Below, in pieces: positions 19,295 through 62,134 of a DNA stretch of 64,000 bases. Position numbers and translations under genes: made by a program. The notes below the pieces were generated by a model. It searched no databases, was not told where the DNA came from, and saw only the letters and a list, made by a program, of their open reading frames with translations. Each line of letters opens with the position of its first letter. Position 1 is the first letter of the stretch. This stretch comes from Cylicocyclus nassatus (Eukaryota; Nematoda; Chromadorea; Rhabditida; Strongylidae): NCBI GenBank assembly GCA_958299035.1, contig CATQJL010000001.1, positions 19,699,433-19,763,432 on the forward strand, given 5' to 3'.

Positions 19295-19753
19295 TTAGAA
19301 CGAACTCAAAACAGAGAAAAGACAGAGGTTATAAAAAAAGGCTATATAAAAAAAACCACATCGTAGACTTCTTAGTTCAGACAGGCTATGGCTATGGCTT
19401 CTACCTGAAGATTGCCTAGGTACTTGTAGATGTTGTTTTAGCTCTTCACATTCAATGCTTATGATCGGAGTTTGTTTCCCCACTTCCATATATTCTGTCT
19501 CTCTGGTGTTGAGCTTCAAGCCATACAACTCTGGCCTTTTTTCCCAATTTTCTACCACGTCTCGTAGATCCTTTCTGGTACTCGCTAATAAGACTACATC
19601 ATCTATGTAGAGAAGTGCGCACAGAGGTTTGTCTGAGCGGTTTTCCATCACGGCGTTCATCACAATTATGAAGAGCAAGGGACAGAAAGCTGAACCTTGG
19701 TGTACTCCGACCTTGATTTGGAATTTTTCAATTTCATGTAGCTGTTTGCACAT
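19295..19753 (-). pseudogene. Reverse transcriptase palm fragment of a decayed non-LTR element
   Basis: The peptide contains KVGVHQGSAFCPLLFIIVMN (motif with QGS), LLYIDDVVLLAST (active-site YxDD, here YIDD) and YGLKLNTRETEYMEVG, which match the RT palm and thumb of RTE/CR1-like retrotransposons common in hookworms. The end (about residues 110-152) drifts into unrelated sequence, indicating a frameshift. The rest of RT and the endonuclease lie upstream on this strand in several frames up to 22560. Confidence 0.8.
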
Positions 19754-21095
19754 GGCTTGAAGCGTTGTGACAGATCAACTTTATTCATTAAAGGTACTCC
19801 TCTGGCACCCTCTGTTTCCGTAAGGCTCACCATATGACTTCATGGGGCACCCTATCGAAGGTTTGCTCCTGGTCCAGTAAGGCCATGATCCGAGCGTAAT
19901 GGATTGCGTCAGTTATACCTGACTCTTGACTCTTTCACAAATTCGCACTGATTTGGTGACAACTCTATGATATCTCGAAAGACGCATTTCGATTATGCTC
20001 AAAGATTTTTGAAATGTGGCTTATTCGGACTGGTCGGTAGAATGCGCAATCTGCTATGTCTCCTTTACTCTTCCATATCGGGATCGTCTTGCTGGCGTGC
20101 CATTCGCGAGGCATACTCTTGCTCCTTATAATTTGATTGAAGAGACTGGTTAACCGTGTGGCTCCGGGTCCTCCACATATTTTCCAGAACTCGCTTGATA
20201 TGTCGTCTGGATCAGTCGCTTCGCATTTCTTTGTTCTTCTTAAGGCTAGCCATACTTCCTCTTCTGTGACTGCTTGTACTAGTCTTTGTATGGAACTGGC
20301 TTCTGAGATGGAGTTGATGGTGGTGCGGTCTGTGGTGGACGTTTCTTCGAGGCAGGTTCCCCATCTTTTGGTGAGGTCCTCTGGTTTTCTTTACTTTCTA
20401 CCAAGTTTGTCTCTAATTTGAAGAAGTGTTTCATATTTCTTGTGGATTCCACTCTTCTTTTCGCTATCCGGTATACCTCACGCTCTCCCTCGCGAGATTC
20501 TAGCTGATCTTAAAGCTCTTTCAAGTACACTTGTTTTGCCTTTTTTACGGGAGCCTTCGCAGCGTGTTGGGCTTGTTGGTATGTCTGGCGATCGTCATCC
20601 GATCTCATCTTATGCCATCGCTTGCACGCTTCTCTCTCCTCCTTTACGGCTTTTTGCACTTCGTCATTCCATCGCCACGTTTCTCAATTAATCCTCCTTT
20701 TTCCTGACTGTGTACTTCCCAGGATCATGTGCGCCACTTCGTGTGTGCCACTTCGACCTTTCAAGCTCGCCCAGGATCGCTCGGATTCCTCTTGCGAACT
20801 CGATAGAGTTGTTACCAGTGCTTGTTTTGTCGTTTGTTAAAATTCCACCATTTAATGGGTGTCCTGCTTTCTGTGGCTCTTCTGATGTTCCTATCCGTTG
20901 TTATTTTGATGTCGACAAGCAGTGGTTTACGTTGAAATATGCCGCTTTCATGGGATGACTTTGTAATCCTTTACTTTTTTTGAGGTCATGCTATCGGATA
21001 GCCTAGAAATCTATCTCTGTTTGTCACTCACCAGCTTCATATGTTATACGTAATCATCCTTCTTGATTTAGTATGCTTTCGCTAAAATTAGATAA

Positions 21096-29229: not shown

Positions 29230-29925
29230 ATTCGGATTGTGTTTCCAGCTTAAAAAGTCTTTTTAGGAAGCCGCGGGGGCAAAATATTGTACTTCTCCTA
29301 TGCTTGCTCGTAAGCTTAACTCTCGGACATCTCTGCTGACAATGAAAAAAGCGTAGAAGGAGGCCAAAATGAGCTCAAAGTCCTAACCCATCAGGGCACC
29401 CGTCTTCTCATAATTTGAGTAAGTTTATTTTCTTGATTTGGATCTGATCCCAAAAATACGGTTACTTTCAATTTCGACCAAAGCGACTATGATAAATAGA
29501 GGTGCCACGGTTTCTTTGAAGTGTTGCATTTTCACAAAAACGGTTCTAAATAAATTTTAGAGCTGCATCGATACCGGTTGCAGTTTTAGATTGTCGGAGT
29601 AAACTTTTTAAGCAGACTAAGAATGTAGCAGTAAAGCACGGAGCTGAGTGTATAAAGGATTAATCAAAAGCTTCTTGTTAAAAAGCACGCGCGAGTGTCT
29701 GTAGAAATAAAAATCCTGCTACCAAGAAGAAGAAAAGTTTTCAGAGACCGTAGAAGATCTCGATCCTGAAAGTTTAGTAAAAAATTATGCTTTGATAGTA
29801 TGCATATTTTATTGTAACAAGTGGCTCATTCCTCAATTGATAAAATTCTCTAGGCAAATTATGTAGTTTTTTAATTACCTAAACTATTAGGCCTCACGAG
29901 TAAGCATTCGTCTGATGTCTGACGT
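29230..29925. other. No supported gene upstream of the BEL/Pao element
   Basis: AT-rich sequence with no recognisable ORF, LTR or primer binding site. The 5' part of the BEL/Pao element (5' LTR, gag, protease, most of RT) is absent here. Confidence 0.45.
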
Positions 29926-29936
29926 CAAACGCAGGG

Positions 29937-30803
29937 GTGCTCATCAATAACAGACTTAGGGAGATTCAAAAGATCGTTTTGGCACTCAAAGAGAAAGGCG
30001 CAGTAACCATATTCAAATATGTAAACTCGAAGGATAATCCTGCGGACGCGGGAACCAGAGGTCTGACGAAAATACAGCTTGAAAACCACTTCTGGTGGCA
30101 TGGCCCAGAATTTTTGCGCGAACCAATAGAAACATGGGCACTTCCAACATACGAAGTAGAACTGCAAGGCGACGAAACTCAGTGTTTCAAAATAACGACA
30201 ACACCTGAAGCCGAAATTCAAAATCAGCAAAGTGATCTACTAGACTTGAACAGATTTAGCTCGCTGAAAAAAGCGAAACGAATTGCTGCGCATGTTCTAG
30301 TGTTTGTTTACAAATTAATGCGCACATTTTCATTTTCGCAAAAGAAGAAAATCATGGAAAACATCCCCGAGCTAAACTCAGTTCTCCCGGAATTGCCTTT
30401 GAATGGTACCACAATTAAAGCAGCGCGATTAGCCCTGGTCAGAAATCATCAGCAACAAATCTTGTCTGAATCTTTGCGCAAGTCCCTGGAAAACTCACTG
30501 AGACTCTTTGAAGATGACCAAAAAATCTGGCGATCTAAGGGACGGTTAGGCAACTCCCCCATAAACGAAAGCGCAAAAAATCCAATCTATATAGGGCCGA
30601 ATACGCCATTAGCAAAGCTTATAATCCACGAAGCGCATGGCAATTACCATAGAGGAATCGACAACACAATAGCTACAGTGCGCACGCGTTATTGGATCCC
30701 CAAGCTACGGCAACAAGTAAGGAAAGAGGTTTCTCGGTGCGCGAATTGTAAAAGATTCAACGGTCGGCCATACGCATATCCTTACACGACTGACCTCCCA
30801 TAA
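29937..30803 (+). pseudogene. BEL/Pao Pol fragment: RNase H end and integrase zinc domain
   Basis: The frame opens inside NNRLREIQKI and includes YVNSKDNPADAGTRGL and HFWWHGPEFL, a hallmark of the region after the RT/RNase H of BEL/Pao Pol. Near the end, HEAHGNYHRGIDNTIATVRT leads to CANCKRF, giving the H-H-C-C zinc-binding domain of integrase. It stops at TAA 30801-30803; the next ORF (30810) is in the same frame and begins seven codons into the integrase core, so the stop is a nonsense change within one protein and the first Met is not a real start. Truncated at its N-terminus by the element's 5' deletion. Confidence 0.85.
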
Positions 30804-30809
30804 AGAAGA

Positions 30810-33800
30810 GTGCAAATAAGTCGTCCATTTCAACACGTAGGATTAGACTTTTTCGACCTACCAATTTCCAAAGAAAATAACGAGCAAAGAGAAACCTACG
30901 GTTGCATTTTTACATGCACTGTAACGCGCCTAGTACATCTGGAATTAGTGCAAAGCATGGCTATAATAGACTTCCTGAATGCGCTAAGGAGATTCATCGC
31001 AAGGAGGGGAATACCAACATCCATCACTTGTGATAACGCGCCCACTTTCCTTTTATGCGAAGTGATCCTAAGCGCCGAAAAAGGGATATCACACTTAAAT
31101 GAAGAACTAGCGCGAACTTTCGCAGACCAGGAAATTCACTGGTATCATATCACGCCGTATGCCCCTTGGCAAGGGGGGTTCTATGAGCGCTTAATAAAGT
31201 CAGTCAAACACGCCTTGTACAAAGCACTGCGCTGCATGCCAATGCCAACCGTAGACCAACTCGCTACCTTTCTGACGGAAATAGAAGCCTGCTTAAATTC
31301 TAGACCATTGACGTATCAAAGCGCGGACTTGGAAGAATTTAGTGCACTGCGTCCTATTGATTTTCTACAAAAAGAGATAGTTCTGACCCTCCCGCAAGCG
31401 CATACGAGATCTCAAAATCAAGATCCCGATTATCTGCTTCCTCAAGAAATCCAAGCGCTAAAGACGCGGAGAGAAGCCGAAGAAGCGCTAGAAAAATCTC
31501 AAAAATACGTAGAAAGATTCTGGAAAATTTGGAAGCATCAATACCTCACTAGTTTGGGCGAAAAGCACAAAAAATGCGTAGCTTCGAAACGATCGGGGCA
31601 ACAGACGCCAAAAGTGGGAAATGTGGTTTTAATCACGGATCCAGTGCTCCCGCGCAACGAATGGAGATTAGGACGCATTACAAAACTTTTACCCGGCGCG
31701 GATAACCAAGTACGCGAAGTGGAACTAGTGACATCCACTAAAAGAAAAATTCACCGTCCTGTAAACTTACTGGTTCCTCTTGAACTAGATGATGAAGAAC
31801 CCAAGAATGTTACATTACAAGAGCAAGAAACAGCTCAAGAGCCGATCCAAAACGTTCCATCAGAGCGCGAGAACTCCAGATACGAATTACGCGCTAGAAA
31901 ACCCATACAGTATACAGAAACCGTCACGACAAAGGCACCAACCACAGCCAAACCCTCAAAACACTGGTTTCTGTTCCACCTCATGATCCTGCTCATGCAA
32001 TTCAACTTGAAGCGCACCGAGATAACAAAGATTTCTTGCGCACAAAACGGTGTTACAGTAACATCTTTTGCAAAAACCAGTTTCGAAATCTGCGCAGAAA
32101 CACTTTGCGAAGTGCGTAAAAACGATCAGAATAACACACACTTCGTAAGACCCCCAGCGGAAATTACATTGCACGACTATCTGGTAACGGTTAAATGGAT
32201 CGATAATGGACGCATTACTACCATCTCAACTTGTTGCTCCGCTCTTGATTTCTGTAGGAATATTGACTGCATGATTTGCGACAAGCTACTGTTCAACCCT
32301 GAGTGTTGGCCAAAAGGAGCTATCTTCCTCATAGCCTTCATTTTATACATTGGCAGTACAGTGTTATATACACTTCTGTGGATAACAGCGCTAACGGTAA
32401 AGTCCCTAAAATTTTCAATCAACGCATTAAGAACAATCTGCACTATCACTTTGCGAATTATGGGCAGATGCGTCATTTACACAGTTCGCAAGCTGCGCAG
32501 ACGCCGATATTCAAGAGCGCAAAAGATAGCTGCGGCATTAGCGCTATTTACGATAGTCATAGAGCAAAAACACTTTGGAGTACTCTCCTGTCAAGAAATT
32601 AATGTTCTCGAACATCAATCCACCAATTGTATCGTTTCAAAGGAAAAAGAGACTTGCAAAACTAGTATAACAGAAGTTTTGAAGATCAACTCGTTTATGC
32701 AGGAGGCATTTTTGCGCCTAGTCAAAAACACATCGCTCGTCGCTAACGTAAAAATACGGTGGCACGGTCTAAGACTGACATGCGCAAAAGAAAGCGTGTT
32801 CTTCACACGAGCAACTAAGTTGAACGTTATTGACAGCAAGCGGTGCGCACATATGGGCTCGTGTGTTGGGTCGAAATGCGCAGCAGTAAATGAATCCGCC
32901 TTATTGCCAGAGTTGAGCGAAGGGAATCAGTATCCAGGCAGAACTGGATGCTTAGAATCATGCGGGGGCATAGGCTGCGATTGTTTCTATCCAAACGCAG
33001 GATGTCTTTTTTATCGAATTTACGCCACCCCACAAAATTCCGAAATCTTCGAAATTTTTCGCTGTGCGCAGTGGAAAGAAGTAGTAAAGGTGGAAGTAAT
33101 CGTAGAAGAGCTAAAACTGGGTAAAAGAAGCTATATCATTGCAGCCACTCCAAATATACCCATATCGCTTCCGATGTTGAAGATTACGCTCACTGTTTGC
33201 GCTGTTCCACCAATACCGTTCACAACCCAAAAATTCATCACAAACGGCATAGACACCGCCTTATGGTCAAGCGACATCGAGCCAAATTTGCGCTGTGAAA
33301 ACAAAGAGAAAGCTATAGAGTTTAACTGCTCGTTTAGCGACAACTGCAGGTGCGAAGGCGCAGAAAACAAAGTCAATTGCCAATGCTTACAACCACAAAT
33401 TCAAGAAGAGTTTGACAAAATACAACGCAAACTGCCGCTGAAAACTCCATTTTGGGAACTGTCACTTCGGAAAAACCAACTCACTGCGCACATTCCGCAT
33501 ATGGTTTCCGCAGAGTTCACAGCAAATTTTGAGAAAACTTTCGAAACAGCACTAGTGGAGATTGACAACAATATTTGCATTGTTAATGACTCTCACCTCA
33601 GCGGATGCTATAACTGCGCAAAAGGTGCAGAAGCGCGCATAGACTGCAAGTCAGAAGCAACAACAATAGGAGAAGTCCTCTGCCAGGGAAACGCATTCGT
33701 AATACCATGCGCCCCCTCGTCACCGCATTCAACGTTGCGCTTTCACTTCAGCAGCGCTAGACAAAATCTGAACTGCACCATAAAATGCGGGACAAAATCG

Positions 33801-34166
33801 CAAACATTCACGATTTCAGGCATTCTGAAATACGTAGGACCGCTACATCACGTTGCGCTAACTAAACTGAAAGGAAATAGCGCAATATATAATGAAATAG
33901 CATGGCCTGATTTCGCACATATCGCAGAACTTTTATTTAGTTGGTACAAAACCGTCGTCATAGCGCTCATAGCAGTCGCGGGCGCTCTTCTAGCTACGTA
34001 TCTTTGTCTGCAAACATTGGGTTGGAAAATACTCGGTTCCGTGCTAAAAATGGTTTTTGCGCTCACATTGCTTCCATTACGATTAGGATGCTACGCTCTG
34101 CGCATGATTGGTAAACAAAAGGCCAGAACGGGAAAGAAAACGGAACATCACATCAAAAATCTCTAA
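30810..34166 (+). CDS. Integrase core, DUF5641-like domain and phlebovirus-like Gn/Gc envelope, fused
   Basis: The DDE integrase core has Asp near residue 13 (VGLDFFDLP), Asp near 75 (TCDNAPTF) and Glu near 126 (GGFYERLIKSV). A DUF5641-like segment (WRLGRITKLLPGADNQVREV) lies at about 285-330. From about 380 the sequence becomes an envelope: a hydrophobic segment (384-398), Cys-rich ectodomain, transmembrane stretch (500-530), a second signal-like segment (about 565-590) and a larger Cys-rich ectodomain with CLESCGGIGCDCFYP near 713, the signature of phlebovirus-type class II fusion glycoproteins (Gc) found in nematode BEL/Pao elements. A C-terminal membrane anchor is at about 1045-1068. The ectodomain frame is intact. 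In infectious relatives such proteins mediate membrane fusion; function here is unknown. Confidence 0.85.
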   Translation: MQISRPFQHVGLDFFDLPISKENNEQRETYGCIFTCTVTRLVHLELVQSMAIIDFLNALRRFIARRGIPTSITCDNAPTFLLCEVILSAEKGISHLNEELARTFADQEIHWYHITPYAPWQGGFYERLIKSVKHALYKALRCMPMPTVDQLATFLTEIEACLNSRPLTYQSADLEEFSALRPIDFLQKEIVLTLPQAHTRSQNQDPDYLLPQEIQALKTRREAEEALEKSQKYVERFWKIWKHQYLTSLGEKHKKCVASKRSGQQTPKVGNVVLITDPVLPRNEWRLGRITKLLPGADNQVREVELVTSTKRKIHRPVNLLVPLELDDEEPKNVTLQEQETAQEPIQNVPSERENSRYELRARKPIQYTETVTTKAPTTAKPSKHWFLFHLMILLMQFNLKRTEITKISCAQNGVTVTSFAKTSFEICAETLCEVRKNDQNNTHFVRPPAEITLHDYLVTVKWIDNGRITTISTCCSALDFCRNIDCMICDKLLFNPECWPKGAIFLIAFILYIGSTVLYTLLWITALTVKSLKFSINALRTICTITLRIMGRCVIYTVRKLRRRRYSRAQKIAAALALFTIVIEQKHFGVLSCQEINVLEHQSTNCIVSKEKETCKTSITEVLKINSFMQEAFLRLVKNTSLVANVKIRWHGLRLTCAKESVFFTRATKLNVIDSKRCAHMGSCVGSKCAAVNESALLPELSEGNQYPGRTGCLESCGGIGCDCFYPNAGCLFYRIYATPQNSEIFEIFRCAQWKEVVKVEVIVEELKLGKRSYIIAATPNIPISLPMLKITLTVCAVPPIPFTTQKFITNGIDTALWSSDIEPNLRCENKEKAIEFNCSFSDNCRCEGAENKVNCQCLQPQIQEEFDKIQRKLPLKTPFWELSLRKNQLTAHIPHMVSAEFTANFEKTFETALVEIDNNICIVNDSHLSGCYNCAKGAEARIDCKSEATTIGEVLCQGNAFVIPCAPSSPHSTLRFHFSSARQNLNCTIKCGTKSQTFTISGILKYVGPLHHVALTKLKGNSAIYNEIAWPDFAHIAELLFSWYKTVVIALIAVAGALLATYLCLQTLGWKILGSVLKMVFALTLLPLRLGCYALRMIGKQKARTGKKTEHHIKNL

Positions 34167-34278: not shown

Positions 34279-34292
34279 AATTTTCAGACCAA
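34279..34292 (+). promoter_or_regulatory. Strong 3' splice site (AATTTTCAG) just upstream of ORF3
   Basis: The sequence AATTTTCAG/ACCAA places the splice junction after 34287 and the ORF3 ATG at 34293, only 5 nt downstream. This matches the nematode consensus TTTTCAG and the very short 5' UTRs of spliced-leader mRNAs. It is therefore a likely acceptor for cis- or trans-splicing of an ORF3 mRNA. Confidence 0.7.
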
Positions 34293-35417
34293 ATGAAGAG
34301 ACTCGAACAAATACAAAGTGAAGTCCGCACGATACATTGCGCTCTCCAGCACCAGCAAGAGACCATAGACTACCTCTCAAAGATCCTCGAAGCAGTGCGC
34401 GACGAAATTGAAGAGGAAGAAACAGTTGCGCAGAACGAGGCGCGCAAGCTACGAAAAGCAATAAACAACTTGACAACCGCGATCGAAGCAGCGCTGAAGA
34501 ATCTAAGCTTGGATGTACAGTCAAACGCCGAACTCCTCAGCGAAGAGGGGGAGGGCGCAGACGCTGCAGCTGTCAAGGAGGAAACTCACCCAGAAGACAT
34601 CGGAGTGGAATCGATGGAAAAAGGAGATGACGACGTGCACATGGGTCAGCGTGAAGCCGAAGCCATTCGGAACAATCAGGAATATGTCGAAAAACTTGTG
34701 ATAGAGATGGAGGAGGCAGCGCCGTTCGAAGAACCGCAAGTAGAGGAAGTCCAAATGGAAGAACCGAAAATGGGAGAAAATGAAGCGCACGCCGACGAAC
34801 CTCCAAGGAATGAGGAAGCGATGGAAAGACCAGAAGCCCGCTTGCGCAATGAGGATTTGTTGTCAGCGCTACAAGTGGAGAAGAAGCAAACCCTGCAGGC
34901 GATACACGACTTGAACCTGTTGATCGACGCCCTGGAAAAGGAAAAAACTTGCGGGCCGCGTAGATACCACAAAGGCGAGATTCGTAAGGACACGGAAAGG
35001 AACATGTCATGCGCATTCTGTAGCGCTGTCGGATATCATTATTCCGACTCTTGCCCGGAGGTACCAACGGGCAGGGAAAGACGAGAACTTCTCGAAGCGA
35101 GCAACAGATGCGAAACCTGTCTCGAATACTGCGCTGGGGGAAATCGAAAATTTTACACCAAGTGTTTCCATTGCCCGAGACAGGGCATCATTCCGCCCTA
35201 TGCGAGCTACCCGACAGAAGTCAGGAGATTTTCGATCAAATTGAAGAAGCAGAGCGATCGAAGCAAGGAAACTTCCAGCGCCTCAAGCAAATCGACATGG
35301 AAATTCAGGAGTACCGCCAGGACCCATCGCACTAGCCCCGGGGGAGTATCGCCGCGATCGGATACGGTATCGTTATCGCCGCGATCGGATACGGTATCAT
35401 CGCATGATATGTTTTGA
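34293..35417 (+). CDS. BEL/Pao ORF3: coiled coils, acidic region and zinc knuckle-like C-terminus
   Basis: The 374-residue protein begins MKRLEQIQSEVRTIH and has a predicted coiled coil at about 1-70, a very acidic Glu-rich middle (about 75-185), a second heptad region (about 190-220) and Cys/His motifs: CAFCSAVGYHYSDSC (CX2CX5HX4C, about 237-251), CETCLEYC and KCFHC. The zinc part resembles knuckles of BEL/Pao Gag proteins. It ends with two 9-residue repeats (SPRSDTVS.). Its location after the envelope, with its own splice acceptor, is unlike the standard order, where Gag is first. It may be a nucleic-acid-binding accessory protein or a captured Gag-like gene; function unknown. Start chosen because the ATG follows the acceptor by 5 nt. 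Confidence 0.75.
   Translation: MKRLEQIQSEVRTIHCALQHQQETIDYLSKILEAVRDEIEEEETVAQNEARKLRKAINNLTTAIEAALKNLSLDVQSNAELLSEEGEGADAAAVKEETHPEDIGVESMEKGDDDVHMGQREAEAIRNNQEYVEKLVIEMEEAAPFEEPQVEEVQMEEPKMGENEAHADEPPRNEEAMERPEARLRNEDLLSALQVEKKQTLQAIHDLNLLIDALEKEKTCGPRRYHKGEIRKDTERNMSCAFCSAVGYHYSDSCPEVPTGRERRELLEASNRCETCLEYCAGGNRKFYTKCFHCPRQGIIPPYASYPTEVRRFSIKLKKQSDRSKETSSASSKSTWKFRSTARTHRTSPGGVSPRSDTVSLSPRSDTVSSHDMF
35347..35398 (+). repeat. 27-bp tandem repeat at the end of ORF3
   Basis: TATCGCCGCGATCGGATACG and the following few bases occur twice with a 27-bp period (35347 and 35374). In frame it gives the repeated peptide SPRSDTVS. Confidence 0.8.
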
Positions 35418-35841
35418 GAATTTGAACTTTTTATTGTAATGTTTCTGTTATGTTAACAGCTTGTGCGGCAGTTCTTGAGATGCAAGCGGCAGCGGCCGCT
35501 CGTGTTCAATCAGTCGTTTTTCTCCTCTTTTTGTCAACATTGCTTTCAAGTTATGCCTCTCATCTGCTGTCCATTTGGAATGCGCGCCAAAAAGAACTCT
35601 AAAGACAATTTCTGCTCAACGCACCTTTCAACAGTTTTCTTGTGGTCAATTGCGCTGAAAAATGCCTATGCACTTCCTTGCAAACTCACTTCCTATTTTT
35701 GGTAGCTTAACAAGAAAGTGCGCTTGTATCATTCATTTGCGTCATATTTTGGTATTTTCTGTGCCTAAATTGCCATATCACATTGCTTTATCTTTGTCAT
35801 AGATTTATTCGTATTTGTTGCATTCAAGTATTTTGTATGAG

Positions 35842-35869
35842 GGTTTAATTACCCAAGTTTGAGGTAAAC
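35842..35869 (+). promoter_or_regulatory. SL1 spliced-leader sequence plus GTAAAC donor in the BEL/Pao 3' region
   Basis: Positions 35842-35863 are identical to all 22 nt of nematode SL1 (GGTTTAATTACCCAAG and the remaining TTTGAG), followed by GTAAAC (35864-35869), the donor that follows the leader in SL RNA. The match ends there: the flanking sequence does not resemble SL RNA (no Sm-site-like AATTTTTGG at the proper distance). It lies upstream of an AATAAA at 36057, where the LTR R region is expected. In a full provirus the same sequence in the 5' LTR could start transcripts with SL1 and splice to the acceptor at 34287. Confidence 0.85.
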
Positions 35870-35950
35870 GTGCGCAAAGTGGTGTTGTGTGTGTTCTTCC
35901 TGGTTGTCAGTGTAACAATACCGCGTGGCATTTGCGAGCACAAACCGATT

Positions 35951-35962
35951 CACAAGGTAAGA
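35951..35962 (+). promoter_or_regulatory. Second splice-donor-like site CACAAG/GTAAGA
   Basis: The sequence AAG/GTAAGA at 35954-35962 is a strong 5' splice site consensus 93 nt after the SL1-type donor. It ends an open frame with a hydrophobic, signal-like start but without ATG. Use of the site is inferred. Confidence 0.35.
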
Positions 35963-36056
35963 AAATTTCGAAAGATTCGTGGCCCATTCACTGGCAGGGG
36001 GGTTCCCCCTCGCCCTCCCCCTTTCGGTCCGCCGCTGGCACATATGCCAAGTATAC

Positions 36057-36062
36057 AATAAA
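36057..36062 (+). terminator. Poly(A) signal AATAAA of the BEL/Pao element
   Basis: A canonical AATAAA lies 215 nt after the SL1 start. If transcription starts at SL1 in the 5' LTR and ends here in the 3' LTR, the R region would be about 230 nt. Confidence 0.55.
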
Positions 36063-36139
36063 ACTGTATTCTCCATCTTCCCAGAAAGATGTGATTACGC
36101 CATTTCAAAAGCCTAAAAACTTGCAGCAAGTTAAGTAGT

Positions 36140-36937
36140 AGTCAGAATAAAAAAAATCGAGGATTTCTTCACATTCTTTGAAAAGGTCGATTAAGAGTGC
36201 TAAAGTGAAGTAACCGTGAACTAATTTTGTAATGTTTGAATGGCTGCGAAAGGGCGGCCGCCCAGGAGTTCCCAAAGCCTCACCGCCTTTCCTTGAAGGG
36301 GTACTTAGCACTTCTAAGGCGTCCTCGCACTTTTGAAAAGGCTCCGCCAATTTGTTCCGCCTACTGGCGAATCTCATCACGAGTGTGCAGGTTTGGAGGA
36401 TAGTTCAATTACTCTGGATGAGTAATGAAGGATGGAACATGACATACTAGGATTTGGAGACCCTACCATGTTGCGTCTGCAATATAGAAAAGAGAAATTT
36501 ATTATTAGAGATCTTTTGACCATTAGGCGTTACTGTGGGCATCGCTTCGTCTGAAGGAAAATTCCGTTTTCCGACTTTAAAGGACAGGTGTACATATGTA
36601 TGTTTGGTTGAAATCTGTTGAGCAAGTTGCAGGTGTCCTAGATCATTTCTAAAGGACTTCCCACTTTTTCTGATTTTTCGGGCAATTTATTTTTTCCAGT
36701 TTTGTTACAACTTTGCTTAGTTTATGGATGCAAATTAAAACACAGAATTACAGAATTTTTATGGAGTATGGAAATACGACTTGATGCGATATTGACCTGT
36801 TTTGGAGCAAAACGTGTGTTACAACCAAAGAATTGAGCTTCCCATCATTTCCAACAATTTTTTCAAAGAATTTGAATAGGTGCTCAACACTAAAAGTCAC
36901 TGAAATTGTGTTAACCGTCTTCAAGTGTCCATGATAA
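36140..36937. other. No supported gene
   Basis: AT-rich DNA between the BEL/Pao element and the first Helitron-like element. No coding or repeat structure recognised. Confidence 0.35.
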
Positions 36938-37793
36938 TCTTATATATAAAGCTGAATGTCTGTTTATCTGTCTGTATGTCTGTATGTCTGTATGTCTGTA
37001 TGTCTGTACGTATGTTCCGAATAGAAAATTCCATTTCTGAACCGATCCGGACCAAACTTGGCACACATACGCTACGGGCCCCGGCGGGTGTCATAGGCTA
37101 CTTTTCGTCATCGATCGATATCGATTTTATCGATTTTTATCGATTTTTTTTGCTGAGTTCACCTACGGGGCTGGAAGTTGGCACAGGGGGGTAATCGAGC
37201 ATGGGGATTCCGAATACAATATTGGTTTTCAGGATTATCGATTACTTTTATCGATTTCATCGTTTTTTTGCAAAGTTTGAGCTACGGGGCTGGGAGTTGG
37301 CACAGGGGTGTAATCGAGCATGGGGATTCCGAATACAATATTGGTTTTCAGGATTATCGATTACTTTTATCGATTTTATCGTTTTTTTGCAAAGTTTGAG
37401 CTACGGGGCTGGGAGTTGGCACAGGGGTGTAATCGAGCATGGGGATTCCGAATACAATATTGGTTTTCAGGATTATCGATTACTTTTATCGATTTTATCG
37501 ATTTTTTGCAAAGTTTGAGCTACGGGGCTGGGAGTTGGCACAGGAGGGTAATCGAGCATGCTGATCACCCCCACGGGGGTGCTCAGCATGCTCGATTACC
37601 CCCCTGTGCCAAATCCCAGTCCCCCAGCTCAAATTTTGCAAAAAATCGATAAAATCGATATCGATCGATGACGAAAAGTAGCCTATGACACCCGCCGGGG
37701 CCCGTAGTGTATGTGTGCCAAGTTTGGTTCGGATCGGTTAAGAAATGGATTTTTCTATTCGGAACATACGGCGGAGCCGGGTATGCCAGCTAG
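36938..37793 (+). mobile_element. Non-autonomous Helitron-like element with internal tandem repeats
   Basis: It begins TCTTATATATAAAGC after an A and ends with GGCGGAGCCGGGTATGCCAG and CTAG before a T. TC at the 5' end, a hairpin-forming GC-rich segment followed by CTAG at the 3' end, and insertion between A and T are Helitron features. Near the 5' end is a TGTC/TGTA microsatellite. Three 119-bp units (37168-37530) follow, then a palindromic junction (about 37553-37594) after which the 5' region is repeated in inverted orientation (37600-37768). No Rep/helicase ORF is present; ORFs across the tandem units reflect periodicity. Confidence 0.65.
37168..37530 (+). repeat. 119-bp tandem repeat, three units
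   Basis: Each unit runs from 'ctacggggctgg.agttggcacaggg' through 'aatcgagcatggggattccgaatacaatattggttttcaggattatcgattac' to a T-rich end; 'ggggattccgaat' recurs at 37203, 37322 and 37441. Units are over 95% identical, indicating recent unequal exchange. Two similar units are in 38350-38590. Confidence 0.85.
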
Positions 37794-38205
37794 TTAATGA
37801 TAAGAAATCCTTTTTTTGGAATGGCTATTTTTCAAAAAATTGAGCTAAATATGCGCTGAAATTCTGTAAATTCTGTTTGCAGGCCAAAAGATTCTATCCA
37901 ACCTACTATACTTATTAGATCGATACACAAGTTCCACAAACTTGTGGAACTTGTGCACAATACACATTCCATAACTTACAATGTGAGCCTAATTTATAGC
38001 TTGTCCGAAAAAAGTTGGTTTTGGCTTCAAGATAGTTACCCCAATCAATTTTCCTGGCTTTCCTCGAATAAACAGACTTCCAATGATTGCATTTCAAAGT
38101 TTTGATGATTTCACATCAAAGTGCCGACAGTATAATCATGAAATCTATGGGACATTCATAGCAATGCTCCGTACGTCAACGTGACAAGCTTCAATCTATT
38201 ACCTA

Positions 38206-38898
38206 CTAGCTGGCTTCCCGGCTCCGCCGTATCCGGACCAAACTTGGCACACATACACTTCGGGCCCCGGCAAGTGTCACAGTCCACTTTTCGTTATCGA
38301 TCGATGTCGATTTTACCGATTTTTAACGATTTTTTTGCAGAGTTCACCTACAGGGCTAGGAGTTGGCACAGGGGGGGAAGTGAGCATGGGGATTCCGAAT
38401 ACAACATTAGTTTTCAGGATTATCGATTACTTTTATCGATTTTATCGATTTTTTTGCAAAGTTTGAGCTACGGAGCTGGGAGTTGGCACAGGGGGGTAAT
38501 CGAGCATGGGGATTCCGAATACAATATTGGTTTTCAGGATTATCGATTACTTTTATCGATTTTATCGATTTTTTTTGTAAAGTTTGACCTGCGGGGCTGG
38601 GAGTTTGCACAGGGGGGTAATCGAGCATGCAGATTAATCCCCATGCTCGACTACCCCCCTGTGCCAACTCCCAGCCCCGTAGGTGAACTCAGCAAAAAAA
38701 TCGATAAAAATCGATAAAATCGATATCGATCGATGACGAAAAGTAGCCTATGACACCCGCCGGGGCCCGTAGTGTATGTGTGCCAAGTTTGGTCCGGATC
38801 GGTTCAGAAATGGAATTTTCTATTCGGAACATACGTACACATAGACAGACAGACAGACAGACATACAGACAAACAGACATTCAGCTTTATATATAAGA
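38206..38898 (-). mobile_element. Non-autonomous Helitron-like element, minus strand
   Basis: On the minus strand it begins TCTTATATATAAAGCTGAAT (ending at 38898) preceded by A, and ends CCGGGAAGCCAG-CTAG (38206) followed by T. The interior repeats the 'aatcgagcatggggattccg' unit twice and has an inverted junction near 38625-38655. It belongs to the same family as 36938-37793 and lies 410 bp away in opposite orientation. Confidence 0.65.
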
Positions 38899-38973
38899 TG
38901 TAGAGACAAAAACTCTGAAAAATATTTCTTTGCAAAGAAAATTACCTTCTTTGTACCATATATCACTCAGTAC

Positions 38974-51699: not shown

Positions 51700-53930
51700 A
51701 TGCCGGATGTATTGATACCGTGACAGGGAACTAGAAATATCTCCTAGTATATAAAGACGATCTCCACGTCAGAAGACCACCAGCATCATCAACTGCTACT
51801 CATCAACATCAGCATCTGATTACTCAAAACTGGATGCTTTCTACGAAAACGTGGAGGAGGTCGTCCTCAACGAGAACTCCTTTTAAAAGTTTTTTCACAA
51901 GTTTGTTGTGGGCGACTTCAATGCGAAAATCGGGATGTCACTAGAAAAGGAATATAGGGTTGGGAAGTTTGGATATGGGATTCGGCACAAAAACTGCAAC
52001 TGTCTTGTTGGCTCCTCTCTGCCGCGCGACGTTTCCACGAAAATTCCATCTTTATGAAGAAATGCCATCGCTGGTGGATATCTGAATTGCTTAACGGAAC
52101 GACTCATGCGGTGATCGACCACATTCTGACCAACCGAAGGTGGGCCTTGCTCGATGTCTCAATAGTTCCATCCTTCTGCAGTGGCTCTGACCACCGCCTC
52201 CTTCGAGCGAAGATACGAATCTGCTGGAAAAGCTGAAAAAGAAAGTCTGTCACAGTCTGCAAGAAGGAAAAAAGTTGTTTATGACGGTAACAGGCTAAAA
52301 GAGCTCATATGAAGTTGTGACTGCCCCATCGAGGAGGACCTAACATAAGATTACGACCGGTTTCTGAAAGGATTGCGAGCTTATGGAAAGTGCACCTCAG
52401 TGAGAAGAACTTGGAATGTATTTCGCTGAAGTGCGCACTGAAGGGCGATTAGACCATGAAGACATCTATGGCTCCAGGACAAGGCCATCTTTCCCTTGAA
52501 TTCTTGCGAGCCGAAGGACAACGTCTACACGAGATTCTCGCATTGCACCTAACATCTTAACTTCAAGAGGAGAAAATTTCCGACCAGTGCAAAACGTTAA
52601 AAACCGTTCTTCTCTTCAAGAAGGGTGAACGGGAAAATTTTTCGAACTATCGTATGATGCCTGCTAAGTGCGCTGTACAAGTTTTTCAGAAGGTTATCCT
52701 CCTTGCATATCTAGGGAACTGAAGCCCAACCCCAGGAACAAGCTGGATTTTGCAAAGAATTTGAGCTGCGTGGACCACATCCAGACCGTTTCGAGGGTTA
52801 TAAATTGCCGGGAGTACGGACTACCTCTTGTCCTAACCTTCGCCGATTACGAGAGAGCCTTTGACAGCCTTTGATAGCGACGCCATCCTGTTTGCGCTAA
52901 TCGATCAAGGAATGAGGACGTTAGCCGATTGCTACAAGACTGTACAATGGCGATGCAGCTGTTCCATCGCTCCTGACCATCCCATTTGGGAAGAAGGTCC
53001 GACAAGGCGAACTAATTGCCGTTTACCGCGGCTTGCAGTGGGTGATAAAGTCACTACTGAGACGAGAGAGGCATACGAGTTTATGAGAGATTCCTGTCAA
53101 ACCTTCGTTTCGCGGACGACATCATTCTCTTTTTGAATATTATTACTGAAGCAGAGACGATGCTGAAGGAACTGAACGAATTAGGGAAGAAGATCGGATT
53201 GCGAGTAAATCGGAAGAAGGTTAAGTTCATGAAGAACGCTTTTTGCGAAGATGCAGGAATGGAATTGGAAGGCGCCTTTATCATGAAGACGTCTTCCTAC
53301 GTGTATCTCGGACGTACGATGATAAAGAAGACAGGAGAAAAAAAGCATCCGCCTTCGCCCTTTGAAGGAAGCACCGACCAACTGACGGACCCGGAGGTTC
53401 GCGCTTACCTGTTCGACTCAACCAACCTTCCGGCGATCTGTTACGCAGCTGAGACTGGGCCGACACCGTAGCCACCGAAAGCTCTAGGCACCGCCCACAG
53501 AGCGTTAGAGCGCAGTCTTCTGAAGATGACTCGACACAAACAACATCTTGTCGCACTTCGCAGCACGGATATTAGAAGAATGTCCCGTTTTCGTGACCAG
53601 CTGAATACGACCGATAGGCCGGTCATATCATGAGAGTAACAGACGACAGATGTACACTAAGAACATCTAAGTGAAATCCTCGCAAACCCAAACGTTTCCA
53701 AGGAAGACCACCGACGAGATGGGCAGACGAGTTCGTGGAACGAATGGGCCAGCTGAGAAATTAGCTGGATATGATTTTCGCACCTGGAACTCGTGGACGC
53801 AGCCACTGGCGACGATTAGGAAGATCGTGGATGTCTGGAGCGAGGGACAGGGATCAATGGCAACCTATGTACTGAGGCTCGCACGTCACGTGAGGACGGC
53901 CATCTAATTATCTTTATCCTTACTAGTAAG
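51700..53930 (+). pseudogene. Broken RTE-like retrotransposon (endonuclease plus RT)
   Basis: Pieces in order: DYSKLDAFYENVEEVVLNE (about 51815-51870) and FVVGDFNAKIG (about 51900-51935, endonuclease), IVPSFCSGSDHRLLRAKIRI (end of endonuclease, 52165-52224), SCVDHIQTVSRVINCREYGL and LTFADYERAFDSL (RT fingers, 52765-52872), LRFADDIILF (palm with intact FADD, about 53107-53135), LRVNRKKVKFMKN (thumb) and MATYVLRLARHV (C-terminus). The frame changes at least six times and stops interrupt it. 3' tail: 'tctttatccttactagtaagtaagtataaagata'. The N-terminal endonuclease is missing. This family is widespread in strongylid nematodes. Confidence 0.8.
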
Positions 53931-60272: not shown

Positions 60273-61727
60273 TCAAAGCAGGAAGAACCGTCGAGCGAAA
60301 AGGTGGGCGCGGAGCCGGATGTTCTTGGTCTTCTTCACTACGTCCTCAATTGTCTTATATGCTCCCCATGCTGCACGTTTCCTCCTGCTCAGTTCCGGAG
60401 CTAGATCGTTCATCATATTGAGTTCACGACCTAGGTAGGTGTAGCTTGAGCATTCGGTGATGTTCGTCCCGTTGAGCATGAAAGGAGCATTAGGCACTCT
60501 TCCGTTCCGCATGAACATCGTCTTCGTTGAATTCAGCCGTAGACTGATCTTTCCACACACTTCGTCGAACTGGGCCAGCATTTGTCCCGCCTGCGTGATG
60601 CTTGATGTTACCAATACGACTTCATCAGCAAAGCGAAGGTGGTGTAGCTGCCGCCCGTCGACTTTCACTCCCATGTTGTCCCATTCCAACTTTCGCATGA
60701 CGTTCTCCAGAGCGGCACTGAATAGCTTCGGCGATATAGTATCGCCTTGTCGCACGCCTCTCTTCACGTCGATGATGATATCCTTGTAGAATGGTGTTAT
60801 GGTGGTTGTGAAGTCGTTATACAGCTCACGAATTATCTTGATGTAATGAGTCGGAATACTTTGATTGCTCAAGGCATCGATGACGGCTTCAGTCTCAACC
60901 GAGTCAAAGGCCTTCTTTAAATCGATGAAGGTGAGACAGAGCGGCATCTTATACTCTCGTGACACCTCAATGAGCCTTGACACGGTGTGTATGTGGTCTA
61001 TCGTGCTGAATCCTCTTCGAAACCCAGCTTGCTCGCATGGTTGTCCTTCGTCTAACTCTCTTGCGATCCTGTTGAGAATAACTCGCGTAAAGAGTTTGTA
61101 GACTACAGACAACAAGCAGATAGGGCGATAATTTCCGATGTCGCAGGGATCTCCCATCTTGTACAGCAGCACGGTTTTGCTGGTCTTCCATTGTCTTGGA
61201 ACCTTGCCTTCCGTCAGGTGCCGCGTGAAGAGCCTTGCCAAAGTCTTGATGAGAAATGGCGAAAGATTCTTCAGAAGTTCTGGCTTAATCCTGTCGGGAC
61301 CGGGTGCTGTACGGTTCTTCATCATGATAGCATGACGAATTTCGGAAGAAAGAACAGACGGTGCGACATACTCGTCCTCTTTGAGATGGCATGGTGAAAG
61401 GTGGACGTGGCCCGCAACAAGATCCGTGTAGAAGTCGAGGATGACTTTCTCCATTGATCTTCGGGAAGCAGTTATGGTCCCGTCAGGACGACGAAGTGCG
61501 GTCGTCTTTGTCTTGAAGTTGACGAAGCTTCGGCGGGCGTTGCGTATACTTCTTCCAGCCTCCGCGGCTTCAACCATCACCGCTACTCTTCTCTCCTTGA
61601 GGTCTTCTCTTATCGCTTCTCTGCATCGCTTCGCAAGCTCGGACGTCAGTCGGTAGTTGCCTGTGGCTCGTGCGCATCCACGTTGGCGTATCAGCTCCAA
61701 AGTCTCCGTGGTGAGACGCCTTCTCAT
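60273..61727 (-). pseudogene. RTE reverse transcriptase, long open frame with FADE active site
   Basis: The 484-residue frame covers the linker after the endonuclease and the whole RT: HLTEGKVPRQWKTSKTVLLY, NYRPICLLSVVYKLFTRVIL (fingers), EQAGFRRGFSTIDHIHTVSR, LTFIDLKKAFDSVE (palm A), VKRGVRQGDTISPKLFSAAL (motif B), LRFADEVVLVTSS (motif C) and SLRLNSTKTMFMRNG (thumb). Motif C is normally FADD or YADD; the GAT GAA codons here (about 60620-60635) replace the second catalytic Asp by Glu. The last residues (ARRFFLL) are out of frame: the family continuation STVLPALTDASETW is found in the next frame. The start is arbitrary, since relatives are fused to the endonuclease. Confidence 0.85.
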
Positions 61728-62134
61728 TTCTTAGACTCTGAGCTTCCTTGGCACAATCGTGGAGATGTTGTACTAACCGTTCGCATTCTTCGCCGATGTT
61801 GTCCATCACGGTATCTCGCCATGAGCCGGATATCGAAGAAAACAGATCCCAGTTGGTGGTATTCATGGGACGATGTTTCCTAAACTTGACGGCTTTCTTT
61901 CCATTCCGCGAAGTAGAATTTGGCGCGTAGGAGACGATGGTCTGATCCCGTGTAGAACTTCGGAACAACAGCGACGTCCGTCAGGCAGTACCTTCTGTTG
62001 ACGATGTTGTGGTCAATCTCGTTATGGTACTCTCCACCGGGCGATTCCCAGGTCCAGCGTCGGGAAGAGGGCTTTTGGAACTGTGAGCTTCCATGGATAG
62101 TCCTCGTCATAGCTGGATGTTGGGGCATACGCAA
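61570..62134 (-). pseudogene. RTE endonuclease C-terminal part, two frames
   Basis: The 62134-61880 frame contains EIDHNIVNRRYCLTDVAVVP and FYTGSDHRLLRAKFYF, the conserved end of the endonuclease with the SDH catalytic motif. A frameshift leads into 61968-61570 with RKHRPMNTTNWDLFSSISGS and the following linker, which then enters the RT frame. Confidence 0.75.

Follow-up and report, generated by a model that had tools for sequence, protein, structure and literature searches.

SL1 spliced-leader sequence at a constant site in long terminal repeats of BEL/Pao-type retroelements of Cylicocyclus nassatus, a candidate R region and first exon

The retroelement in the window and its coding content

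The window, a stretch of 64,000 nucleotides (C1:19699433–19763432) from the DNA of Cylicocyclus nassatus, a gut worm of horses, contains on its plus strand a retroelement that is truncated at the 5' end. Its coding part begins with a pol remnant carrying the integrase zinc-binding domain (29916–30803; PF17921, 1.3e-14) and goes on with a frame for the C-terminal part of the integrase and a phlebovirus Gc-like envelope (30804–34166; PF18701 (DUF5641), 1.4e-17, and PF07245, 4.3e-91); the earlier part of pol, with the Peptidase_A17 part, was not seen in the window. PF17921 and PF18701 are domains that mark BEL/Pao elements, and both of them were found here. The match to PF07245, a phlebovirus G2-like fusion protein, gives the element an envelope of the kind seen in Atlas-type belpaoviruses, and the best sequence match of this envelope among PDB chains is 7a4a (8.2e-36), which we take to be the structure of the Atlas Gc. 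No relative of the envelope frame was found in IMG/VR. Behind the envelope lies ORF3 (34293–35417, plus strand), which has CCHC-like Cys/His motifs. It has no match in Pfam, its relatives occur in C. nassatus (the closest one) and in Cylicostephanus goldi, and its end diverges from them as if frame-shifted. The motif TTTTCAG (34281–34287, plus strand), which fits the nematode splice-acceptor consensus, stands 5 nt before the ATG of ORF3 and is a putative acceptor. In addition, three further fragments of RVT_1 reverse transcriptase are present in the window, at 60276–61730 and 19298–19774 on the minus strand and at 53061–53468 on the plus strand.

Limits and copies of the LTR

The 3' LTR occupies 35347–35952 (plus strand, 606 nt), begins with TATCGCC and ends with CCGATTCA, and the purine-rich GGGGGAG directly before it (35340–35346, plus strand) is probably the polypurine tract. 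A second LTR was not found in the window, and the window copy has one LTR. When the 514.7-Mb assembly was searched with window positions 35300–36200, 41 matches were obtained, and at least 19 LTR copies besides the window were recognized at 92–97% identity, a lower bound since 40 of 46 candidates were scored. Fifteen of these copies run from about query position 1 or 48 to about 653 and four are partial, and it is their extent that places the LTR at 35347–35952. The ends were confirmed at six of the seven copies with borders checked, where identical 5-bp target duplications are present, the seventh being a 5' LTR. Five copies (L077, L078, L079, L082 and L083) run on into TGGTGCATCG, and L080, a 5' LTR by its place, does not have TGGTGCA. 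Behind the LTR of the window, complex inverted and tandem repeats with a spacing of 119 nt and arms of 94% identity were observed at 36937–38899.

An exact SL1, GGTTTAATTACCCAAGTTTGAG, lies within this LTR at 35842–35863 (plus strand, 22 nt) and is followed by the splice-donor-like GTAAAC at 35864–35869. It is the sole SL1 match in the window at up to three mismatches, and no match was obtained across 100 shuffles; an earlier note on this DNA had thus read the 28 nucleotides correctly, and it was also right in placing them in the LTR of an envelope-bearing BEL/Pao-type element, as the LTR copies and the domain matches show. The AATAAA that it had listed 215 nt downstream is indeed present at 36057, but this is outside the LTR. 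Immediately before SL1, where TTGTATGAG is found, no AATAAA occurs in the window family. From the position of SL1, the U3 region is proposed to extend over 35347–35841 and the U5 region over 35864–35952 (both on the plus strand), the end of the latter being taken from the copies and the alignment. The proposed U5 contains CCGCGTGGCA (35921–35930, plus strand), which is complementary to the anticodon arm of tRNA-Gly(GCC).

In all 20 aligned LTR copies, the window included, SL1 stands at the same position, and it is exact in 14 of them. Moreover, GTAAAC is unchanged throughout (0 changes in 114 cells), while SL1 itself shows 10 changes in 415 cells as against 64 in 1367 upstream and 53 in 1559 downstream, which is weakly lower than in the flanks. 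In copy L076, the first SL1 bases are repeated at the border with U3. The earlier note had proposed as a check that SL1 should recur at one LTR position in independent insertions, and so it does, six of the copies having their own 5-bp target duplications.

These copies bear on two explanations that treat the site as something accidental. The first is that an SL RNA pseudogene was inserted here by chance, for which the donor-like GTAAAC behind SL1 would speak, and the earlier note had accordingly taken GTAAAC to be the donor of SL RNA and the site to descend from SL RNA itself. However, the donor is a different one, since the units of the SL RNA arrays (L028–L030) read GTATTTTCTAG at this place, and the Rfam SL1 model RF00198 gives 16.5 bits at the window site as against 37.5 bits at an array unit of the same genome, both being below the Rfam cut-off of 75 bits. 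Furthermore, the sequence behind SL1 is specific to each family apart from the GT. Descent from SL RNA is therefore unsupported, a full SL RNA gene with donor stem, Sm site and 3' hairpin was not found at the window site, and no Rfam family reached its cut-off anywhere in the window. We consider the chance insertion of a pseudogene hardly credible, and for the window site it is refuted by the constant LTR position. The array units themselves are arranged in tandem about 680 nt apart (G000:C1:30.138–30.173 Mb), and in L028 no 5S rRNA was found at the Rfam cut-off. The second explanation is that the site is the retrocopy of a trans-spliced host mRNA, in which SL1 would be joined to an exon resembling a signal peptide, with a GT-AG intron between this and a second exon running to 36138. 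At 35870–36138 it is in fact possible to draw an open frame that has a phase-0 intron, but the LTR ends within it at 35952, the flank beyond varies between the copies, and the frame is shifted in 15 of the 20 by an extra T, which refutes such a retrocopy. The 46-aa peptide of the drawn frame gave no candidate in the protein search. A two-exon gene for a small secreted protein headed by SL1 (35842–36138), attractive when the window is viewed by itself, was likewise dropped in view of the LTR end and the 19 other copies. No match to SL1 was found in IMG/VR, and none to window positions 35400–36900 in the phage collection.

SL1 in LTRs of divergent families

The exact 22-mer of SL1 occurs 582 times in the genome, SL RNA arrays included, and its reversed control does not occur at all. 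From the first approximately 100 places listed, 30 loci were cut out, 27 of which, including the window, are scattered over the first 28.4 Mb of C1. Four LTR pairs with 98.8–99.7% identity within the pair were found among the cut-out loci, and the partners L040 and L052 were added from neighbouring pieces. In the resulting six pairs, which represent five families, SL1 occupies a matching position in the two LTRs and is exact in 10 of the 12, the others being L040 with one mismatch and L052 with a 3-nt deletion. All four pairs examined for coding pieces have Peptidase_A17 (E ≤ 1e-36) and hence belong to BEL/Pao. The earlier note had not noticed that the leader is common to several divergent BEL/Pao families. 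A polyadenylation-like hexamer stands just before SL1 in many families. In 20 of the 27 loci, SL1 is directly followed by GT, and in 4 others a repeated TTGAG stands between the two; the exceptions are L011, L012 and L017. Among 12 hand-chosen family representatives, from which L011 and L012 were left out as not LTR-like, GT comes after SL1 in 11, whereas its frequency in these sequences is 0.05. At 14 further places picked up by a short match, exact SL1 and then GT were present in 14 of 14, these having been found via that very stretch.

It could be supposed that SL1 is a relic, captured once long ago, inherited by related elements and without present function. The four tested pairs are all BEL/Pao elements with a primer site of the tRNA-Gly type (one of them with a mismatch), which speaks for a relic. 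But their Peptidase_A17 sequences are only 41–51% identical, and the sequence around SL1 can no longer be aligned (in about 470 nt around the masked SL1 of the 12 representatives, no similarity at E ≤ 1e-3 was found except in one pair), and yet 21–22 nt with their exact boundary and the GT are kept. We therefore disfavour the relic and regard it as improbable.

The most telling natural experiment is offered by L017 and its partner L052, which are 97.3% identical. Behind SL1, which in L052 has the 3-nt deletion, stands TGTTCACGCCCC; this sequence aligns ungapped with the 12 nt behind the TTCATTCAG acceptor in the relative L013 (9 of 12 identical), and about 84 nt of U5 are absent. The junction in L017 is good to about one base, since MAFFT aligned the first base with the final G of CAG; in L009, there is one base fewer than in L013 behind the acceptor. 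This junction of SL1 with acceptor-like sequence was probably produced when an element RNA underwent splicing at the border of SL1 and was afterwards reverse transcribed into a provirus.

LTRs collected independently of the SL1 sequence

The primer site behind three of the 5' LTRs is TGGTGCATCGG, with one mismatch behind a fourth. Its complement is the 3' end of tRNA-Gly(GCC), the tRNA sequence used being classed by ARAGORN as Gly-GCC. Moreover, U5 contains 10–13 nt complementary to the anticodon arm of this tRNA in 15 of the 27 loci, and a complement of the D arm instead in L020 and L022. These complements to the primer tRNA may provide an extended primer contact. In the genome there are 107 places where the primer-site motif comes after the U5 core motif, and the reversed control gave none. 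The set does not depend on the letters of SL1, but it is no random draw of LTRs, since SL1-bearing LTRs had supplied the motif. Of the 107 places, the first 60 were analysed, with SL1 sought within 200 nt upstream. No row was dropped, so that the odd ones remain in the counts: L129 and L133 look derived from tRNA and not like LTRs, in L154 the match and the motif are 176 nt apart, and L108 duplicates the LTR of L003.

SL1 within two edits is present at 31 of the 60 places, exact at 11, with one difference at 19 and with two at one, while none of the reversed strings came within six edits at any of the 60. GT is kept at 30 of the 31, directly or after TTGAG, and TAA stands just before SL1 at 28. 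The claim of the earlier note that a donor had been retained is thus borne out in so far as GT behind SL1 belongs to the pattern, both in the family representatives and in this set. At 11 places, all within two edits, the first SL1 base is A instead of G. Of the other 29 places, 14 have four to six differences and 15 have nothing within six, which means that SL1 is not essential for such elements; the trait is common among them and not universal. With SL1 masked, the 60 places fall into 22 similarity groups (E ≤ 1e-6), a count in which pieces as short as these may split related groups, and members of 11 of the 22 have SL1 within two edits. A diverged SL1-like leader is common to one group of six places (L114, L123, L131, L139, L140 and L163), and another diverged leader is shared by a second group (L112, L130 and L166).

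SL1 as a possible R region and leader exon

Considering these results together, we propose that SL1 is the R region of these LTRs and the 5' end of the element RNA, that it doubles as first exon with its splice donor, and that it is held in place by a leader function; the probability of this reading is put at roughly 0.6. We infer all its parts from DNA sequence, namely the RNA 5' end, the assignment of R, the use of splicing, the leader function and the encoded state of SL1. The window site would be the U3/R boundary of a BEL/Pao-type 3' LTR. The element RNA would most likely start with SL1, a start of transcription in the LTR at SL1 being plausible, and the repeat used in first-strand transfer would be SL1 or most of it. 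This assignment is suggested by the hexamer just before SL1, the donor just after it and its position between U3-like and U5-like sequence, and it is supported by the repeat of the first SL1 bases in L076, which is what a slip of strand transfer at the end of the RNA would produce. At the close of SL1, GAG|GT may be retained as a 5' splice site, from which cis-splicing to acceptors such as the TTTTCAG before ORF3 would yield subgenomic mRNAs. Such mRNAs would have exactly SL1 at their 5' end, the same product as that of host trans-splicing. The constant LTR position, the paired LTRs, the divergent families, the kept GT and the L017/L052 junction count for SL1 as R. The lack of AATAAA before SL1 in the window family, the 29 of 60 places without SL1, the A at base 1 at 11 of the 60, the fact that SL1 is only slightly less changed than its flanks, and an L017 junction that is perhaps one base off count against it.

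GAG makes a poor splice acceptor, and this counts against the main rival, which is renewal by trans-splicing. According to it, the transcript starts upstream and gains SL1 from SL RNA, and reverse transcription then copies SL1 into both LTRs as R, so that the LTRs would track the host leader. Renewal would account for 21–22 nt being kept across families that are otherwise unalignable around SL1, and the L017/L052 junction lies at a good acceptor. Besides, the spliced mRNA of Cer1 in C. elegans is known with and without SL1, as described in passages of PMC3315495. On the other hand, the conserved GT right behind SL1 is the mark of a donor and not of an acceptor, and both the diverged leaders shared within two groups and the A at base 1 depart from the host leader. 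We rate renewal as rather unlikely. The conserved GT, the LTRs with A at base 1 and the diverged leaders common to a group speak instead for a leader that is encoded, so that SL1 would usually be encoded by the LTR and kept by selection for its leader function, in translation or in passing as host mRNA. The LTR-borne leader probably serves to let the element RNA begin like a host message. The broader statement, that a set of nematode BEL/Pao families may use the host SL1 as R, perform strand transfer on it and have in the LTR a cis-encoded leader exon, appears to us evenly balanced.

If the proposed role of SL1 is right, spliced-leader trans-splicing and LTR replication, which are usually treated apart, become linked, and deeply diverged retroelements would have retained a 5' exon identical to that of the host, a sign that the identity of SL1 itself brings an advantage. 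The element RNA would then carry the universal 5' end of host mRNAs and its splicing products would be indistinguishable from trans-spliced host mRNAs, and SL1-containing reads alone would be no proof of trans-splicing. Furthermore, the natural variants (A at base 1, diverged leaders and no leader) could be used to test the role of the leader in translation or self-recognition.

Comparison with known systems

The Tas element of Ascaris is a nematode BEL/Pao element with LTRs. Atlas virus and other hookworm belpaoviruses are BEL/Pao elements with a phlebovirus-like Gc (main text of PMC9094657), and the window element resembles Atlas as a nematode BEL/Pao-type element with a Gc-like envelope. 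However, Atlas has LTRs of 271 nt and one Gag-Pol-Env frame according to that text, whereas the window element has SL1 in an LTR of 606 nt and an additional ORF after env. Neither SL1 nor the words splice and spliced occur in the main text on Atlas. In the case of Cer1, a Ty3/Gypsy element of C. elegans, SL1 is trans-spliced onto a spliced mRNA of 2.4 kb (PMC3315495, passages on Cer1). The likeness is that a retroelement mRNA is able to carry SL1, as is proposed for the C. nassatus elements, and the difference is that these passages mention no SL1 in the LTR DNA of Cer1, while in the C. nassatus elements SL1 lies within it. In the available text of the BEL/Pao survey PMC3118150 there is no word beginning with splic, and a term search of the available text of PMC10309623 did not return SL1. 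Among the titles and abstract beginnings searched, a scope that leaves most subscription papers and the original Tas papers outside, no earlier report of SL1 inside LTRs was found. Spliced-leader sequence can also reach genomic DNA by reverse transcription, as in the retrogenes of dinoflagellates marked by DinoSL (PMC6050394, in the parts available), but those are retroposed host mRNAs, whereas the SL1 of C. nassatus is a fixed part of retroelement LTRs.

Other arrangements of SL1

A few SL1 occurrences differ from those in LTRs. At L012 (1501–1801), SL1 is joined directly to a stretch coding for the CAP C-terminal domain (PF08603, 1.3e-28), and this locus is perhaps the retrocopy of a trans-spliced host mRNA. 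At L011 (1501–1522), a dispersed and exact SL1 is not followed by GT, and the LTR features sought there were not found. In L035 (G000:C1:31164500–31167200), eight exact SL1s form two groups of four, 65–91 nt apart within the group; three of the eight are on the minus strand, and all are set among repeats with TGACGTCAC-like motifs.
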